A stretch of DNA of 64,000 nt from assembly GCA_017452265.1 (NCBI GenBank), contig JAFTMS010000012.1, forward strand, positions 1 through 64,000. The letters are read 5' to 3'. A model generated the notes under the pieces. It had not been told where the DNA came from. It saw only the letters and a list, made by a program, of their open reading frames with translations, and did not search any database. The position numbers were made by a program, and so were the translations under genes. Source of the stretch: Bacteroidales bacterium. Lineage in GTDB: Bacteria; Bacteroidota; Bacteroidia; Bacteroidales; UBA932. Of this stretch, positions 18,968-30,958 are shown in pieces (positions within the stretch are counted from its first letter, which is position 1; each line of letters begins with the position of its first letter).

Positions 18968-21622
18968 ATGGCAGAAAAAAAACCGACCGAGACACCTATG
19001 ATGAAGCAGTTTTTCGCTGTAAAGGCGGAACATCCTGAGGCGCTGCTGCTTTTCAGGTGCGGCGATTTTTACGAAACATACGGCGATGATGCCCTCACAG
19101 CCAGCAAAGTGCTGGGAATAGTGCTCACAAAGCGTTCAAACGCCGCTCCGGACTCGATTCCGATGGCCGGATTCCCGTACCATTCCCTTGAGGTGTATCT
19201 TCCGCGTCTTGTACGTGCAGGCTATAAGGTGGCAGTTTGCGACCAGCTTGAAGACCCGAAGCTCACGAAGAAGATAGTGAAGCGGGGAATCACCGAGCTC
19301 GTCACCCCGGGCATCGCCTTCAGCGACCAGCTTCTCGAGCAGAAGGAGCACAATTTCCTCGCAGGCCTGACCTTTCACAAAGACCGTTGCGGAGCCGCTT
19401 TTCTGGACGTTTCCACTGGCACATTTCAGGTGGCGGAAGGCTCTCTGGACTATATAGGCACGCTTCTGAGCTCGTTTTCTCCCAAGGAACTGCTTGTTCC
19501 GAGAGGATATGAAAAAGGCGTCCGCGAAAAGTTCGGAGACAGTTTCTACGTTTCCACGCTCGAAGAATGGGCCTTTGTCTACGACAGTTCCGTGGAAAGG
19601 CTCAAAAGGCAGCTCAGGGTGGATTCCCTCAAAGGCTTTGCAATCGACAGCTTTCCGCTCGGAATCACGTCCGCAGGAGCGCTTCTGATATATCTGGAAC
19701 AGACGCAGCATGTGGGCCTGGCCAACATCTGTTCGATTTCGCGTATCGATGAAGGCAGATTCGTCTGGATGGACCGCTTCACGTTCCGCAATCTTGAAAT
19801 CTTCGCTTCGGCTGCAGGAAAGGACGGCGTCGCGCTCGTGGATGTGATGGACCGATGTTCGTCTCCGATGGGCGCGCGAATGCTCCGTACATGGCTTGCG
19901 ATGCCGGTGATGGATCTGAAGGAACTGGAAGACAGATATGCCGTCGTGCAGCATTTTATTGACAATCAGGACGATCTGAGACGCCTGCAGACAATGGTAG
20001 GTGACATCGGAGACCTTGAGCGAATCATTTCAAGGGCAGCGGCAGGCAAGATCATGCCGCGCGAGGTGATGCAGCTCCGCAGGGGACTCGGACAGACGGC
20101 TCCGATCATGAATCTCTGCAAAGGCAGGGGAGCCGATCCGCTCGATGAGATGATGGATACCATGAGTGATTGTGCGGAACTTCTTGATTATCTTGAAAAT
20201 ACGATGCATCCGGAAACAGCCGCAGCAGTAGGCAAGGGAGATGTCATCGCTTCTGGAGTGAATGCCGAACTGGATGAGCTGAGAAATATAGCCCGCCACG
20301 GAAAGGACTATCTCGTGGGCATACAGCAACGCGAGACGGAGCGTACAGGCATAGCGTCGCTCAAGATAGGCTTCAACAATGTCTTCGGATACTATCTTGA
20401 AGTCCGCAACACATATAAGGACCAGGTGCCGCCGGAATGGATCCGAAAGCAGACTCTTGTGAATGCGGAGCGCTACATAACTCAGGAACTGAAGGAATAT
20501 GAGGAGAAGATCCTTGGTGCGGAGGAAAAGATATATGCCCTCGAGTCCCAGATATATGCTGAGCTCGTGGCCAAGATTCAGGCAAACATCGCGTCGATTC
20601 AGAAGAACTGCCGCGTCCTTGCCCGTCTGGACGTCCTTTCGGGCTTCGCGGATCTGGCCATAGCGCGTAACTACTGCCGTCCGCAGATGAACGACGGAAA
20701 GGTCATAGACATACGTCAGGGCCGTCATCCCGTCATCGAGACAATGATGCAGGCCGGCGAGGAATTCGTTCCGAACGACGTGTATCTCGACAACGAAAAG
20801 CAGCAGGTAATCATCCTCACAGGTCCGAACATGGCCGGAAAATCGGCCCTCCTGCGTCAGACGGCCCTGATAATGCTCATGGCACAGGTCGGTTCGTTTG
20901 TCCCTGCATCGGAGGCCCGTCTGGGCTATTGCGACAAGATCTTCACCCGTGTGGGAGCTTCGGACAACATCTCGCGTGGAGAATCGACCTTCATGGTGGA
21001 GATGCTCGAGACATCTATGATCCTGCACAACCTCTCGCCGCGCTCGCTGGTGCTTCTCGACGAGATAGGCCGAGGAACATCCACGTATGACGGAATGTCG
21101 ATAGCGCGGGCCATAGTGGAATACATACATGAATACGGAGGAGGCGCAAAGACTCTGTTTGCGACCCATTATCATGAACTTAACGATCTGGAGAACATAT
21201 ATCCACGGGTAAGGAACTTCCATATTGCCGTGAAGGAGGTGGGCAAGAACGTCATCTTCCTGCGCAAGCTGGTGGAGGGCGGTGTGGCCCACAGCTTCGG
21301 TCTGCATGTGGCCCGTATGGCTGGAATGCCGAAGCAGGTGCTCGAATCGGCGGAAAGGACGCTGGCGGAGCTGGAAGGCGGTGAGCCGCTTTCGGAAGCG
21401 GTGGTGAAGCCGTCTTCGAAGAAACGCCACACCATCAAGCCTCACAACGTGAAGGAGGGCCGCGTGGAAAGCGACGGCTCGCTGCAGCTGTCGTTCTTCC
21501 AGCTCGAAGATCCTCTCCTGTCCTCTCTGAAGGAAGACCTTGAGGCTGCCGATCTCAACAGCATGACGCCTCTTCAGGCTTTTGACCTTCTGAGAAATAT
21601 GAAAGAAAAAATGGGTATATGA
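18968..21622 (+). CDS. mutS: DNA mismatch repair protein MutS
   Basis: An 884-residue mismatch sensor. The N-terminal mismatch-binding motif is present as FRCGDFYETYGDDA, with the Phe-x-Glu of GDFYET. The C-terminal ABC-type ATPase has Walker A GPNMAGKSALLRQ, Walker B SLVLLDEIGRGTSTYDG and the FATHYHEL motif. The GK-S-A variant of Walker A is usual in Bacteroidetes MutS as I recall. Length and domain order fit MutS1, which initiates repair with MutL. It is followed after 80 bases by an ATPase gene. Confidence 0.97.
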   Translation: MAEKKPTETPMMKQFFAVKAEHPEALLLFRCGDFYETYGDDALTASKVLGIVLTKRSNAAPDSIPMAGFPYHSLEVYLPRLVRAGYKVAVCDQLEDPKLTKKIVKRGITELVTPGIAFSDQLLEQKEHNFLAGLTFHKDRCGAAFLDVSTGTFQVAEGSLDYIGTLLSSFSPKELLVPRGYEKGVREKFGDSFYVSTLEEWAFVYDSSVERLKRQLRVDSLKGFAIDSFPLGITSAGALLIYLEQTQHVGLANICSISRIDEGRFVWMDRFTFRNLEIFASAAGKDGVALVDVMDRCSSPMGARMLRTWLAMPVMDLKELEDRYAVVQHFIDNQDDLRRLQTMVGDIGDLERIISRAAAGKIMPREVMQLRRGLGQTAPIMNLCKGRGADPLDEMMDTMSDCAELLDYLENTMHPETAAAVGKGDVIASGVNAELDELRNIARHGKDYLVGIQQRETERTGIASLKIGFNNVFGYYLEVRNTYKDQVPPEWIRKQTLVNAERYITQELKEYEEKILGAEEKIYALESQIYAELVAKIQANIASIQKNCRVLARLDVLSGFADLAIARNYCRPQMNDGKVIDIRQGRHPVIETMMQAGEEFVPNDVYLDNEKQQVIILTGPNMAGKSALLRQTALIMLMAQVGSFVPASEARLGYCDKIFTRVGASDNISRGESTFMVEMLETSMILHNLSPRSLVLLDEIGRGTSTYDGMSIARAIVEYIHEYGGGAKTLFATHYHELNDLENIYPRVRNFHIAVKEVGKNVIFLRKLVEGGVAHSFGLHVARMAGMPKQVLESAERTLAELEGGEPLSEAVVKPSSKKRHTIKPHNVKEGRVESDGSLQLSFFQLEDPLLSSLKEDLEAADLNSMTPLQAFDLLRNMKEKMGI

Positions 21623-22849: not shown

Positions 22850-24850
22850 ATGAAGAAGATTCTCACATTTGCGGCAGCGCTTTTCGTTGCCCTCGGTGCT
22901 TCGGCGGCGCCGAAACAGTATGGACTTCAGTCGCCCGACGGCGGACTGGATGTGGAAGTGAAGGTTGGTGAAGGAATTACATATACCCTTTCACATGACG
23001 GAGCACTTCTGCTGTCCGATTCTCCTGTGTCCATGACTCTTGAAGGCGGGGCTGTGTATGGAGCGGACGACAAGGTGATCAAGGCTGTTCGCAGGAGCGT
23101 GGACCAGACGATAAAGACCGTGCTCTACAGGAAGGCGGAGGTGAAGGATGCATATAATGAGCTTGCACTCAAGTTCAGGGAATTCTCCCTTGTGCTGCGT
23201 GCATATGACGACGGATTCGCCTATCGTTTCGTTTCGCATTCCAAGGTTCCGTTCAAGGTGGTTTCCGAGCAGGCGGAATTCGTATTCCCGGAGGATTGGA
23301 ATATGTGGGTGCCTTATGTGTGTCAGCATACTCAAACGCTTGAAAGCCAGTATTATAATTCATTTGAAAACCATTATGAATATGTCCCTCTTTCGGATTG
23401 GAACAGGGACAGGCTCGCCTTCCTTCCGCTTATGGTGGACGGGCCGGACGGCAGGAAGATATGCATTTCAGAGGCCGATCTGCTGAACTATCCGGGAATG
23501 TACCTTTACAACAAGGACAGGAATTCCACACTCGAAGCGCGTTTTGCGCCGTATCCGAAGGAAGTGAAGCAGGGCGGTCACAACATGCTCCAGATGGAGG
23601 TGCAGAGCCGTGAGCCTTATATCGCTGAGTATGATGGAGCGACGGAATTCCCGTGGCGTATTGTCGCTGTGTCCGAAAACGATGTTCAGATGGCCGACAA
23701 CGACATGGTCTACCGTCTTGCCACTCCTGCCGACGAGGATACGGACTGGAGCTGGGTGAAGCCAGGCAAGGTCGCATGGGACTGGTGGAACGCCTGGAAC
23801 CTCTATGGAGTGGACTTCCGCGCGGGCATCAACAATGATACGTATAAATATTATATCGATTTCGCTTCCGAGCATGGAATCGAATATGTGATTCTGGACG
23901 AGGGCTGGGCTGTGAACAAGAAGGCGGACCTCTTTGCCGTAATTCCTGAAATAGACCTTGAAATGCTTGCTGAATATGCCTCACAGCGCAATGTGGGCCT
24001 GATTCTTTGGGCCGGATACTGGGCATTCGACCGCGATATGGAGAAGGTCTGCGAGCATTATTCGAAGATGGGCATCAAGGGCTTCAAGGTGGATTTCATG
24101 GACCGCGACGACCAGGTCATGGTGGATTTCCACCGCAGGGCTGCAGAAACTGCTGCAAGGTACGGCCTTATGCTCGACTTCCACGGCACATACAAGCCGA
24201 CAGGACTCCACAGGACATATCCTAACGTCGTGAACTATGAGGGTGTACATGGTCTTGAACAGATGAAGTGGTCGAAGGAAAACGTGGATCAGGTCACATA
24301 TGACGTCACTGTGCCTTATATCCGCATGATGGCCGGTCCTATGGACTATACCCAAGGTGCGATGCGCAATGCCACCAAGCGCAATTACAGGCCTGTGAAC
24401 AGTGAGGCGATGAGCCAGGGAACACGTTGCCGTCAGCTTGCGGAGTATGTGGTCTTTGACGCTCCGCTCAACATGCTCTGCGACTCTCCGTCCAACTATA
24501 TGCAGGAAAAGGAATGTACGGACTTCATAGCCACGGTTCCTGAAGTGTGGGACGAGACGAAGGGACTTGACGGAAAGGTCGGTGAATACATCGCAATGGC
24601 CCGCAGAAGCGGTTCGGAATGGTATGTCGGTGCGATGACGGACTGGTCTGCACGCGACATCACCCTCGACCTGAGCTTCCTTCCTGAAGGAGAGTACACT
24701 GTAACCCTCTACCGCGACGGAATAAACGCCGACCGCGCCGCACGCGACTACAGAAAGGAGGTTGTCTGTCTGCCTGCTGACCGTAAGATAGCTGTCTCCA
24801 TGGCTCCCGGCGGTGGTTTTGCTGCGCGGATCGTAAAAATAGCGAAGTAA
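22850..24850 (+). CDS. glycoside hydrolase family 97 (probable alpha-galactosidase type)
   Basis: A 666-residue periplasmic enzyme with signal peptide (ending ASAAPKQ). The N-terminal beta-sandwich, the (beta/alpha)8 barrel from about residue 290 (WDWWNAWNLYGVDF) and the C-terminal sandwich are in the GH97 order. The barrel has KVDFMDRDDQ with Asp near 414 and VNYEGVHG with Glu near 464. These positions agree with the nucleophile and acid/base of the retaining alpha-galactosidase branch, not the inverting SusB branch. It lies outside the polysaccharide locus, so its natural glycan is unclear. Confidence 0.9.
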   Translation: MKKILTFAAALFVALGASAAPKQYGLQSPDGGLDVEVKVGEGITYTLSHDGALLLSDSPVSMTLEGGAVYGADDKVIKAVRRSVDQTIKTVLYRKAEVKDAYNELALKFREFSLVLRAYDDGFAYRFVSHSKVPFKVVSEQAEFVFPEDWNMWVPYVCQHTQTLESQYYNSFENHYEYVPLSDWNRDRLAFLPLMVDGPDGRKICISEADLLNYPGMYLYNKDRNSTLEARFAPYPKEVKQGGHNMLQMEVQSREPYIAEYDGATEFPWRIVAVSENDVQMADNDMVYRLATPADEDTDWSWVKPGKVAWDWWNAWNLYGVDFRAGINNDTYKYYIDFASEHGIEYVILDEGWAVNKKADLFAVIPEIDLEMLAEYASQRNVGLILWAGYWAFDRDMEKVCEHYSKMGIKGFKVDFMDRDDQVMVDFHRRAAETAARYGLMLDFHGTYKPTGLHRTYPNVVNYEGVHGLEQMKWSKENVDQVTYDVTVPYIRMMAGPMDYTQGAMRNATKRNYRPVNSEAMSQGTRCRQLAEYVVFDAPLNMLCDSPSNYMQEKECTDFIATVPEVWDETKGLDGKVGEYIAMARRSGSEWYVGAMTDWSARDITLDLSFLPEGEYTVTLYRDGINADRAARDYRKEVVCLPADRKIAVSMAPGGGFAARIVKIAK

Positions 24851-24852
24851 TA

Positions 24853-24885
24853 TTTGGATTTTTCATTAGGGGGGGGGTATATTTG
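24853..24885 (+). promoter_or_regulatory. promoter with G9 tract in the -33/-7 spacer
   Basis: A -33 box TTTG (24853-24856) and a -7 box TATATTTG (24878-24885) are separated by 21 bases. The last nine of these are all G (24869-24877) and abut the -7 box. Slippage in the G tract would change the spacer length one base at a time, a known way to switch promoters on and off. The promoter serves the DUF975-DUF2059 pair, whose first ATG is at 24919. Confidence 0.65.
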
Positions 24886-24918: not shown

Positions 24919-25593
24919 ATGAAGACTGCTAAAGAATTAAGGGCTGAGGCCCGTGCCGCGCTTTCAGGAAACTGGGCGAAGGCGGTTGTCTGTTCCATTG
25001 TCATGGTACTCGTAGCCATTGCGGTAGGTGCATTTTATATGTACAGGAATATCTCTGTCGATGAGGCTATGGCTACATCAGACCCGATGGGATATCTCAA
25101 GCTTGTCGGCTGGCCGATGCTTCTGTTCCTGGTCGGAGGCATATTCCTGCTGTATCCTCTCCAGTTCGGCTATTACAATGCCTTCAGGCAGCTTCTCAAG
25201 GAAGGGGATGCCGATCTGACGAACAACATGTTCAGGAATACATTCTCACGTTGGGGCCGCAATGTATGGGGATATTTCCTCATGACCCTTTTCATCTTCC
25301 TTTGGGCTATGCTTCTGTACATACCCGGCATCATCAAGGCCTTTTCCTACGCGATGACCCCGTATATCCTCAAGGACTATCCGGAACTCTCTGCCAATCA
25401 GGCCATCAATCTGAGCATCAAGATGATGAAGGGCCACAAGTTCGACCTCTTCTATCTCTTCCTCACATTCATCGGCTGGGCGATTCTGGCCGTGTTTACC
25501 TGCGGAATAGGATACCTCTGGCTGACGCCGTACATGTCCACTGCAATGGCCGCTTTCTACGAAGATGTAAAATCATCATATGTTGCGCAATAA
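24919..25593 (+). CDS. DUF975 family integral membrane protein
   Basis: A 224-residue membrane protein. The N-terminus MKTAKELRAEARAALSGNWAKAV is the family signature of DUF975, and five or so hydrophobic segments follow (about residues 14-35, 63-85, 118-145, 180-210). Function is unknown in the family. Its promoter carries a G9 tract between the -33 and -7 boxes, suggesting variable expression. The next gene starts 10 bases downstream. Confidence 0.85.
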   Translation: MKTAKELRAEARAALSGNWAKAVVCSIVMVLVAIAVGAFYMYRNISVDEAMATSDPMGYLKLVGWPMLLFLVGGIFLLYPLQFGYYNAFRQLLKEGDADLTNNMFRNTFSRWGRNVWGYFLMTLFIFLWAMLLYIPGIIKAFSYAMTPYILKDYPELSANQAINLSIKMMKGHKFDLFYLFLTFIGWAILAVFTCGIGYLWLTPYMSTAMAAFYEDVKSSYVAQ

Positions 25594-25603
25594 GCTTAGC
25601 GAT

Positions 25604-26083
25604 ATGAAACGTTTTGCGATACTTCTCTTTACCGCAATTGTAACTTTTGCGGCCGGTTTTAACGCTGATGCTCAAACTTCTGGACAAGAAGATCAATATC
25701 GCCAGTCTTTGACAAACATCTTTGTCAAGGGAGATGTCGGTCAGGCGTTTGATGGCGTTCTGGATATGATGGTCGGACTGTTCAAGATGGCAGGAACGGA
25801 ATTGTCTGATTCTCAGGCGGCGGAGTTGAAGACCGGGTTAAAGAACAAACTTGTCGACCTTATGTTGCCTGTGTATATGGAAAACGTCTCGCTGGAGGAT
25901 ATTCAGGCAATGGAGCAGGCCTATAATTCGGATAATCTGGAGAAATCATTGCAAGAATTCAATGCGACGCCAGCCGGCCGCCGTGTGCAGGCTGCGGAAT
26001 CCGAACTGACTGCCGGAATGGAAAGCATCAAGGAGCCTCTGACTGAATGGCTGATCGCTGAAATGGAAAGACTTGCTGAGTAG
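25604..26083 (+). CDS. DUF2059-like secreted protein
   Basis: A 159-residue protein with a signal peptide (MKRFAILLFTAIVTFAAGFNADAQ). The mature part is helical, with a conserved-looking block LPVYMENVSLEDIQAMEQAYNS near the centre, as in DUF2059 proteins. I use the ATG at 25604; an in-frame start 24 bases earlier would precede the signal peptide. It follows the DUF975 gene by 10 bases and ends before a bidirectional terminator hairpin. Function is unknown; the pair may act at the cell envelope. Confidence 0.75.
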   Translation: MKRFAILLFTAIVTFAAGFNADAQTSGQEDQYRQSLTNIFVKGDVGQAFDGVLDMMVGLFKMAGTELSDSQAAELKTGLKNKLVDLMLPVYMENVSLEDIQAMEQAYNSDNLEKSLQEFNATPAGRRVQAAESELTAGMESIKEPLTEWLIAEMERLAE

Positions 26084-28621: not shown

Positions 28622-28801
28622 CACTCTGTTTTTGCAAATATTCAGATGATTCGTCTGCATCATAATAAAATCTTCGGGGGGGGCGGCTTGTTGGCTGTTC
28701 TATAGAATCCGCATTACAGATATCTGATGTTTTTCCGTATAGGGGTGACCTATGCGGTATTTTGTCATGCCTTATATCAAACACCTAAAATCAATAATTA
28801 G

Positions 28802-28948: not shown

Positions 28949-30958
28949 ATGAAACGAAAAATCTTTATCATATCAGTATTGGCTGTATTTATTTCATCAT
29001 GCAGCAAACCTGAAATTACAGATAATGATGTAATATCTTCTGAGACAACAGGCGTGAAGGTGGCTGTCACAGCGACCCTCCCGGGCGAAACTCCTGAAAC
29101 GCGTGTTCAGCTGACGGAAGAGAATCCCGATACGGATAACCGTAAAATAAAGGTGGAATGGAAAGAAAGTGGAGAAACCTTCTCGGTGATGACCGCTACT
29201 TCTACGGCTGCACAAACCTTTACCCAAACCGAAGGAAACAACTTTACAGGTACGTTAACTGATGGTTGGACGCAACCTTATTATGCTTTCTACCCGGCGG
29301 TTACTTCTGCAACCAACGCTACCGCTGTGCCTTACGACCTCAGTACGCAAACAGGAGCATTGAGCGAAGCCACCAACTATATGTATGCCGTGAATACCAC
29401 GGACGGAAAGGAATACAACTTCCAGCACCTCACAGCCATTGTGAAGTTCACATTGAATTTGCCCTCCGGCTATATTCCCACCTCTTTGAGTTTGGTGAGC
29501 GACCGCCTCTTGGCAAAGGGAACGGTAAACCTTACGGGTGAGTCCGTGGCATACACCAACGAACTGAGTGCCCACTCTATTACGGTGGAAAATCCTACAG
29601 TGGTGGGCGGAAAGATTACTCTATACCTCCATGTGTCGCCCATGGCTGCATCCGAAGCATCCAAGAACACCCTGCATATCCGCACTCACAGCGGAAGCAA
29701 GGGATATTCGGGAAGCATTTCCACCTCCAAGGAAATCAAGGCCGGTAAGTACTATACGGCTACGGTGGATGTGACTACCCACGATTATGATTATACATAT
29801 GTTTCTATTGTCAATAGCTCATATAAAGTTTATTCACCTTGGGGACTTCGTGCGTGGGGAGAAAATACCAGTATGTTCGCAAAATGTACTCTTGGAGATA
29901 ATGACATTGATATGGGTACACTTCCTAATGACATTGAAATGGTAGGATTTGCAGGTAATTGGACGACTACCAATAAATCGGGAGCTAATCAAATGTTTGA
30001 TGGGAACAATAAAACTATCAGTAATTTGAGGGTTGTTGGTGGCTATCAGTATAGTGATGGGACCTATGTAGGATTTATTGGAATGTTAGGCAACAATTCC
30101 ACTTTTAAAGATGTTACTTTTAAAGGAGCTACCGTAGCTATTGATTGTAGCAATAGTAGCTTATTAAATTGTAATATGGGTGTTGCTGTTGGAAGCACTT
30201 GTAGTCAGACCAAAACAATCAGTGGTGTTATCATCGAACCAAATCCTGATAGTTTGGAACCAATGTTTCGTATATCGGGAAGTAACGATAAAAGGATATT
30301 TATGGGAGCCGTGGTTGGATATGCATCAGGAACAGTAAGTGATACTTACCAAAGTATCATAAAAGATTGCGTCAATAACCAAAAAATAACCGTAACGGAT
30401 ATGAATGGCAATGGAATCTCTTGTCAACAATTCTATTGTGGTGGAATTTCCAGTAAGGCTGGTAATGAAAGAGAAAATTTTATACAGTGTATAAATAATG
30501 GCGATATTGATGTTACAAATGTTACGGTTGCAACTGGCAACAAGATTGTTAGTGGTATTGCAGCGATGGATGGAGGGAATTTTATAGCGTGTGCAAATAC
30601 GGGAACTATATCAGCACCCACCGGTTTCATAATTTGTGGTATTGGTCGGAATGCTGGTATGAATAATAATTATGGCTGTTACACCGTCAAGCATGCTGCT
30701 ACGAAGCTATATGGAAGTTCCGCCACGTTGAACGGCTTCTACGATTCCGTATCAACCGATACAAACGTAGCAACCAAAGTGGAAGACTTCAATACCGATG
30801 ACGTAGTAAACGGTATGAATGCCGCCCTTGTTACATACAATAGTACCGAAGGATTGGCTGATACCAAGAAGTGCGACAAGTATTGGGCGAAAAGCACTGA
30901 TCCTAATTATCTTTATCCGGTGCTGGTAGAGGGTGCTCCATCATCTTCGGCTCAATAG
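28949..30958 (+). CDS. fimbrillin-like surface lipoprotein
   Basis: A 669-residue lipoprotein with lipobox ending at Cys18 (VFISSC). Residues about 30-280 resemble the fimbrillin/Mfa-like N-terminal fold: VTATLPGETPETRVQL, WKESGETFSVMT, FYPAV and KFTLNLPSGYIPTSLSLVS. From about residue 285 a Gly/Asn/Cys-rich repetitive region follows (SNLRVVGGYQ, GFIGMLGNNSTFKDV), similar to GLUG-type repeats. This C-terminal half is markedly AT-rich (about one third G+C at 30061-30120 and 30481-30540) compared with the N-terminal half. It is likely a surface adhesin or pilus-tip-like protein with a variable C-terminus. Confidence 0.75.
   Translation: MKRKIFIISVLAVFISSCSKPEITDNDVISSETTGVKVAVTATLPGETPETRVQLTEENPDTDNRKIKVEWKESGETFSVMTATSTAAQTFTQTEGNNFTGTLTDGWTQPYYAFYPAVTSATNATAVPYDLSTQTGALSEATNYMYAVNTTDGKEYNFQHLTAIVKFTLNLPSGYIPTSLSLVSDRLLAKGTVNLTGESVAYTNELSAHSITVENPTVVGGKITLYLHVSPMAASEASKNTLHIRTHSGSKGYSGSISTSKEIKAGKYYTATVDVTTHDYDYTYVSIVNSSYKVYSPWGLRAWGENTSMFAKCTLGDNDIDMGTLPNDIEMVGFAGNWTTTNKSGANQMFDGNNKTISNLRVVGGYQYSDGTYVGFIGMLGNNSTFKDVTFKGATVAIDCSNSSLLNCNMGVAVGSTCSQTKTISGVIIEPNPDSLEPMFRISGSNDKRIFMGAVVGYASGTVSDTYQSIIKDCVNNQKITVTDMNGNGISCQQFYCGGISSKAGNERENFIQCINNGDIDVTNVTVATGNKIVSGIAAMDGGNFIACANTGTISAPTGFIICGIGRNAGMNNNYGCYTVKHAATKLYGSSATLNGFYDSVSTDTNVATKVEDFNTDDVVNGMNAALVTYNSTEGLADTKKCDKYWAKSTDPNYLYPVLVEGAPSSSAQ

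Follow-up and report, generated by a model that had tools for sequence, protein, structure and literature searches.

A run of nine G stands in the spacer between the two boxes of a putative promoter in the window, that is, in the whole stretch of 64,000 nucleotides analysed here, ahead of a gene for a DUF975 membrane protein. This G9 is, with fair probability, a slippage tract in a promoter of the sigma-ABfr type, which would tune how strongly the DUF975 gene and its neighbour are transcribed. The focal promoter is best read, from sequence comparison, as one of a genus class of tract promoters. Moreover, we lean slightly towards the view that the genus runs a set of slippage-tuned G/C-tract promoters of the housekeeping type, which would serve genes of TonB-receptor-like proteins and lipoproteins, further envelope genes and also at least one candidate small RNA, in addition to coding G tracts.

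The focal promoter and its locus

The elements concerned are the following:

18968..21622, + strand: mutS, a neighbour outside the proposed switch
22850..24850, + strand: gene for a glycoside hydrolase 97 (GH97), upstream, possible source of read-through
24853..24856, + strand: -33 box TTTG
24857..24877, + strand: 21-nt spacer between TTTG and TATATTTG
24869..24877, + strand: G9 tract, the proposed slippage tract, abutting the -7 box
24878..24885, + strand: -7 box TATATTTG
24919..25593, + strand: gene for the DUF975 membrane protein, 224 aa (DUF975 match, E 1.9e-29)
25580..26083, + strand: gene for a probable secreted protein, DUF2059-like, overlapping the end of the DUF975 gene

The boxes follow the consensus TTTG/TANNTTTG given in the available parts of two published accounts (PMC6847099, PMC7366714). 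An earlier sequence-only reading had placed a G9 inside the spacer of a Bacteroidales -33/-7 promoter, and reading of the sequence confirmed the positions of TTTG, G9 and -7 box, as well as the 21-nt spacing. The promoter thus combines a TANNTTTG box preceded by TTTG, as in sigma-ABfr promoters, with a homopolymer between core promoter elements, as in slippage promoters of the porA type. Transcription would start at about 24890, judging from the distance of 4-5 nt between -7 box and start in Flavobacterium johnsoniae, as found in the accessible text of PMC6847099.

The distinctive feature is the placement of the tract, the number of G8+ tracts in the window being within the range of shuffled sequence. 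The G9 and a G8 together give three G8 matches, where dinucleotide shuffles have 1.39 on average, and the focal tract is not significant by itself, since 18 of 100 shuffles of the window give three or more. The G9 is an outlier against the window's own run lengths on the + strand (60 G4, 9 G5, 2 G6, 0 G7, 1 G8, 1 G9). The second long G tract, a G8 at 28676-28683, lies outside any promoter spacer; a TATATTTG box precedes it by about 55 nt, and a lipoprotein-like ORF (28949-30958) follows after 265 nt.

Two other structures were considered at the locus and set aside. A DNA hairpin at the G9 was rejected, as single-strand folding was matched by 27 of 200 shuffles on either strand. An invertible promoter is likewise unsupported: between 24500 and 25300 there are no near-perfect inverted repeats flanking the promoter, and the two pairs which span it are weak (15 nt at 80% and 11 nt at 91%), with arms 418 and 490 nt apart lying in the coding sequence of the neighbouring genes.

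As regards the genes served, they had been described as an envelope pair. The DUF975 protein fits this description, with four hydrophobic segments; the DUF2059 label is weak, its match reaching 19.8 bits against a curated cut-off of 23.6, and the translation of that protein probably begins with a signal-peptide-like stretch.

A DNA search of 61 genomes (its own and 60 others of the genus) gave no match across the promoter, and the five of the 60 other genomes that matched the locus did so entirely inside the end of the GH97 gene. A DUF975 match is present in 141 of 300 genus genomes, own included, and 51 relatives were compared, namely 22 from a named collection and the best 29 others from the genus, 28-56% identical by tblastn. 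In none of the 51 do the 200 nt upstream contain a run of six or more G or C, seven have TANNTTTG in the same interval, and comparison of the surrounding DNA gave no match to the GH97, DUF2059-like, MutS or ATPase neighbours. The source records of 15 of the 22 named relatives mention ruminant or horse. The genus may be Cryptobacteroides, which is a tentative assignment. A switch at the focal locus is deduced from the class to which the promoter appears to belong.

Tract promoters in the genus and beyond

A tract of G8 or longer, followed after 0-12 nt by TANNTTTG, is present in 41 of the 300 genomes of the genus, with 59 distinct tracts in all (54 of them in 40 genomes other than this one), compared with 13 matches for the reversed motif in the same 300 genomes. 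The C8 version of the motif is found at 28 sites in 21 of the 300 genomes, none of them this one, the control giving 7 matches; among the 28 are three tracts of the G set seen from the other strand. TTTG stands 18 to 22 nt before the box (N18-22) at 29 of the 59 tract sites, far above the 4.2 expected from N24-59, which argues that the tract occupies the spacer of a promoter, so that at least half of the set are promoters of this kind. Their common form is AAATTTGGAAAAGTC-G8..10-TATATTTG, and the arrangement in the window, TATTTGGATTTTTCATTA-G9-TATATTTG, resembles those of genomes G142 (L054), G146 (L079) and G209 (L102).

The reverse order, with the tract downstream of the box, was found at 12 sites in 151 genomes, with 5 control matches, and three of the 12 have the appearance of a -33 box with a spacer tract behind it. 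Across these 151 genomes the promoter order accounts for 30 sites versus 12 (p 0.008), or 25 versus 12 without this genome (p 0.047), a modest asymmetry between the upstream and downstream sides of the -7 box.

The source assembly itself (2.56 Mb, 45 contigs, 84% complete) contains 15 distinct G9+ tracts (18 matches), four of them 0-12 nt upstream of a TANNTTTG box. With 28 TANNTTTG in the window, both strands counted, the chance of such a box within 12 nt downstream is about 0.003 per tract, and about 0.04 of the 15 would be expected beside one (P ~9e-8); even if the box is assumed to be ten times commoner near tracts, P = 7e-4. The promoter-placed tracts of this genome, with a fifth of G8, are:

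focal window: G9+ tract, the focal promoter
contig C15: G9+ tract before a lipoprotein-like ORF
contig C20: G9+ tract before a 129-aa ORF
contig C40: G9+ tract
contig C44: G8 tract before a probable exported protein

Two further G9 tracts of this genome are candidate coding slippage tracts. One (L019, C29:195189) falls where a SusC-like frame encodes its signal-peptide region; at the other (L024, C45:47862) a frame of 353 codons continues only 31 codons beyond the G9. Each leaves its frame in a different phase from the long frame that comes next. At the coding G9+ tracts on C4, C14 and C31 the frame runs through.

Differences in tract length have been found between homologous promoters of the class. 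G186 and G265, classed as two species, share a stretch with 3183 of 3217 positions identical, 32 substitutions and two gaps, and the gaps fall in the two promoter tracts (G8/G9 and G10/G9), the first seen in the long alignment and the second deduced from the single gap in the segment with the second tract. Homologous tract promoters in four species have G9, G10, G11 and G12 (L094, L106, L105 and L190), before a gene whose product reads at its start like a CarboxypepD_reg/TonB-receptor protein; when the promoter of L105 was used as query against the 300 genus genomes, only three short matches were obtained beyond G103, G029 and its own genome. Moreover, a pair of C-tract promoters (L176/L177), 97% identical over 78 nt, has C8 in one member and C9 in the other, and in another genus of the family homologous lipoprotein promoters have G8 and G9 (G692/G682), an adjacent T run differing too. 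Several other sets show no difference: two C8 promoters keep this length in every copy, one of them in four copies and the other in two, and the pairs L068/L085 and L087/L088 have G8 in both members. Length variation between homologous promoters, as in the porA type, is thus found in part of the class, and homopolymer errors are possible among the differences because all the assemblies are drafts.

The genes downstream have been characterized as well. A signal-peptide-like start was scored in 40 of 50 proteins after tract promoters versus 12 of 26 after tract-free ones (p 0.004), by a home-made score with a small control set; the score also flags three ribosomal proteins of that set, which we take to be S16. 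Nine of the 59 sites, lacking an ORF within 250 nt, are left out of this count. Lipoboxes alone (18 of 50 versus 5 of 26) did not differ significantly (p 0.19). A Pfam scan of 48 of these 50 proteins, two near-duplicates in L082 being omitted, gave CarboxypepD_reg in 9, Plug in 8, DUF3575 in 4 and OmpA in 2. Tract promoters thus often precede genes of probable exported proteins, and some of their targets are not surface genes.

Among the sites, a conserved unit follows the G-tract promoter at L023 (C40, about 29770, minus strand), L058, L061, L073 and L096, that is, in this genome and in four other species. It comprises a paired GTTCCTGTGAAGGAAC-like stretch, TTAACACACACAATT, a terminator-like hairpin and T-rich sequence, and it looks like a small RNA; eight loci searched against Rfam gave no match at the gathering threshold. 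Furthermore, L051 and the C-tract loci L171-L177 precede short lipoprotein-like or exported ORFs of MKRIL type in several species, possibly a gene family with shared tract promoters; at L171 there is no ORF within 260 nt of the tract.

Outside the genus the picture changes, the strong signal being confined to it. Among 138 genomes of the family from outside the genus, the motif turns up in 13, with G623 contributing six of the 18 sites; the control gave 14 matches over 149 genomes, seven in one genome. An order-wide scan of 294 other genomes found 42 distinct sites versus 33 control matches (p 0.36), and the idea of an order-wide system of tract promoters was dropped because the excess was not clear. 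Seven sites of G623 and G606 (L182-L188), genomes from another genus of the family, have G8-G11 followed directly by TAATTTTGCGGA, with differing upstream sequence. None of the six in G623 shows a TTG at N16-25, and the start of a contig is no more than about 100 nt away from three of the G623 tracts; the seven look like a dispersed element or promoter family. A site in a further genome from another genus (L189, G703) has G9-ATTGCTATATTTG before a lipoprotein-like gene, a string common to L062 and L082, and blastn of its wider locus against those two loci gave no match.

Proposed mechanism and alternatives

In the proposed mechanism, replication slippage would add or remove G in the focal tract, thereby altering the distance and the helical phase between TTTG at -33 and TATATTTG at -7, and the altered geometry of the boxes would change the transcription rate of the DUF975 gene and its neighbour. 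The tract would act as a graded tuner and not as a frame switch. That its length varies and sets expression is what we infer from the class, and the idea of a slippage switch is upheld in its spacer placement, its recurrence in the genus and the length differences at sister promoters. The same cannot be said of the part assigned to mutS: the gene does end 3.2 kb upstream, at 21622, and looks intact, with all five MutS domains, which gives no support to a role for it.

The spacing preference of ordinary promoters was taken from pairs of TTTG and TANNTTTG without G7 or C7 between them, in 382 kb of the window and collected loci. Such tract-free pairs number 3, 20, 11 and 4 at 18, 19, 20 and 21 nt (n=38), counts that are not all independent because the loci are partly homologous; there are none at 17 or 22, one at 23, and 0 to 9 per distance at 10-16 and 24-32. 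Thus, N19-N20 is found in 31 of the 38 and N21 in four, for which reason the focal G9, at N21, looks long. The tract promoters with TTTG (30 of the 59 sites) are distributed as 1, 7, 8, 11, 2 and 1 over N18-N23, and 14 of these 30, versus 4 of the 38 tract-free pairs, have N21 or more (p 0.002). From these preferences G7-G8 (N19-N20) may be stronger than G9, and longer tracts weaker. This direction is the least certain step, because twist and rise may differ in G-rich DNA and could shift the optimum spacing.

Several alternatives have to be weighed against tuning by slippage. The promoter might be an ordinary one in which a G run arose by chance, slipping at a low rate with hardly any effect on expression and under no selection. 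The window's G8+ count within the shuffle range agrees with this, as do the natural variation of spacers in the phylum (reported in the available part of PMC7366714), the want of the tract in all 51 relatives and the equal lengths of some sister promoters; the genus excess of spacer tracts over controls, with no clear excess in the order, and the skew of the targets to genes of exported proteins speak against it, and we regard it as rather unlikely. It is also unlikely, somewhat more so, that the DUF975 gene is mainly transcribed from the upstream GH97 gene, with the focal promoter in a minor role. Only 68 nt separate the two genes, and in 42 of the 51 relatives the DUF975 gene lies within 34 nt of the preceding open frame or overlaps it. 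Against read-through, both consensus boxes fill that gap and leave about 30 nt for a leader, close to the average of 33 nt given for F. johnsoniae in the accessible portion of PMC6847099.

Even less probable is that the tract acts by way of DNA structure or of a protein bound to it, the spacing being a by-product. The distance from tract to -7 box does vary, between 0 and 12 nt, and the spacers of the set are variable, but 26 of the 30 tract sites having TTTG at N18-N23 have it at N19-N21, and folding of the single strands is no better than that of shuffles. It seems equally doubtful that the length differences are merely errors of draft assembly: the indels between G186 and G265 are solely in homopolymers, with just one other run of six or more in the stretch (a T7) as control, but such errors would not put tracts in promoter spacers or yield the enrichment. 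Slippage tuning by way of box spacing is hence retained as the preferred reading.

Relation to known systems

If the reading is correct, uncultured gut bacteria would vary surface genes through promoter slippage and not only through DNA inversion, by a recombinase-free route of phase variation in an order known for inversion, and metagenome surveys of inversion would miss it. Moreover, the tracts would provide a natural series of spacer lengths from which to work out how the housekeeping sigma factor of Bacteroidetes depends on spacing. The claim is testable at tens of loci at once, because existing reads allow tract lengths to be counted.

The sigma-ABfr promoter of Bacteroides has the TTTG and TANNTTTG boxes seen here. 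Its published spacer is AT-rich and of variable length, according to the part of PMC7366714 that is available, whereas the focal spacer contains nine G and exceeds the most frequent spacing of the tract-free set by 1-2 nt. In Bacteroides, phase variation is treated as inversion in the available text of a 2025 review (PMC11868660), and no slippage promoter of Bacteroidales was found among the matches listed in the open-licence literature. For a polysaccharide locus of Bacteroides fragilis, a frameshift in a C run was described in 2010 and slippage suggested (PMC3090145, as excerpted); that case is a suggestion about a coding run of four C, with no promoter involved, whereas the focal tract is a G9 in a promoter.

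The closest parallel is the porA promoter of Neisseria meningitidis, in which a poly-G likewise lies between core promoter elements and its length grades expression: compared with 11G, a tract of 10G lowers surface PorA about 2-fold and one of 9G 13-fold (PMC3639595, from the portion available). The present case belongs to another phylum, with another sigma factor and other boxes (TTTG/TANNTTTG), and is a candidate for such grading. With the invertible promoters of Bacteroides it would share the order and the variation of surface genes at the promoter level; unlike them, it has no near-perfect flanking repeats, and the slippage proposed for it needs no recombinase.
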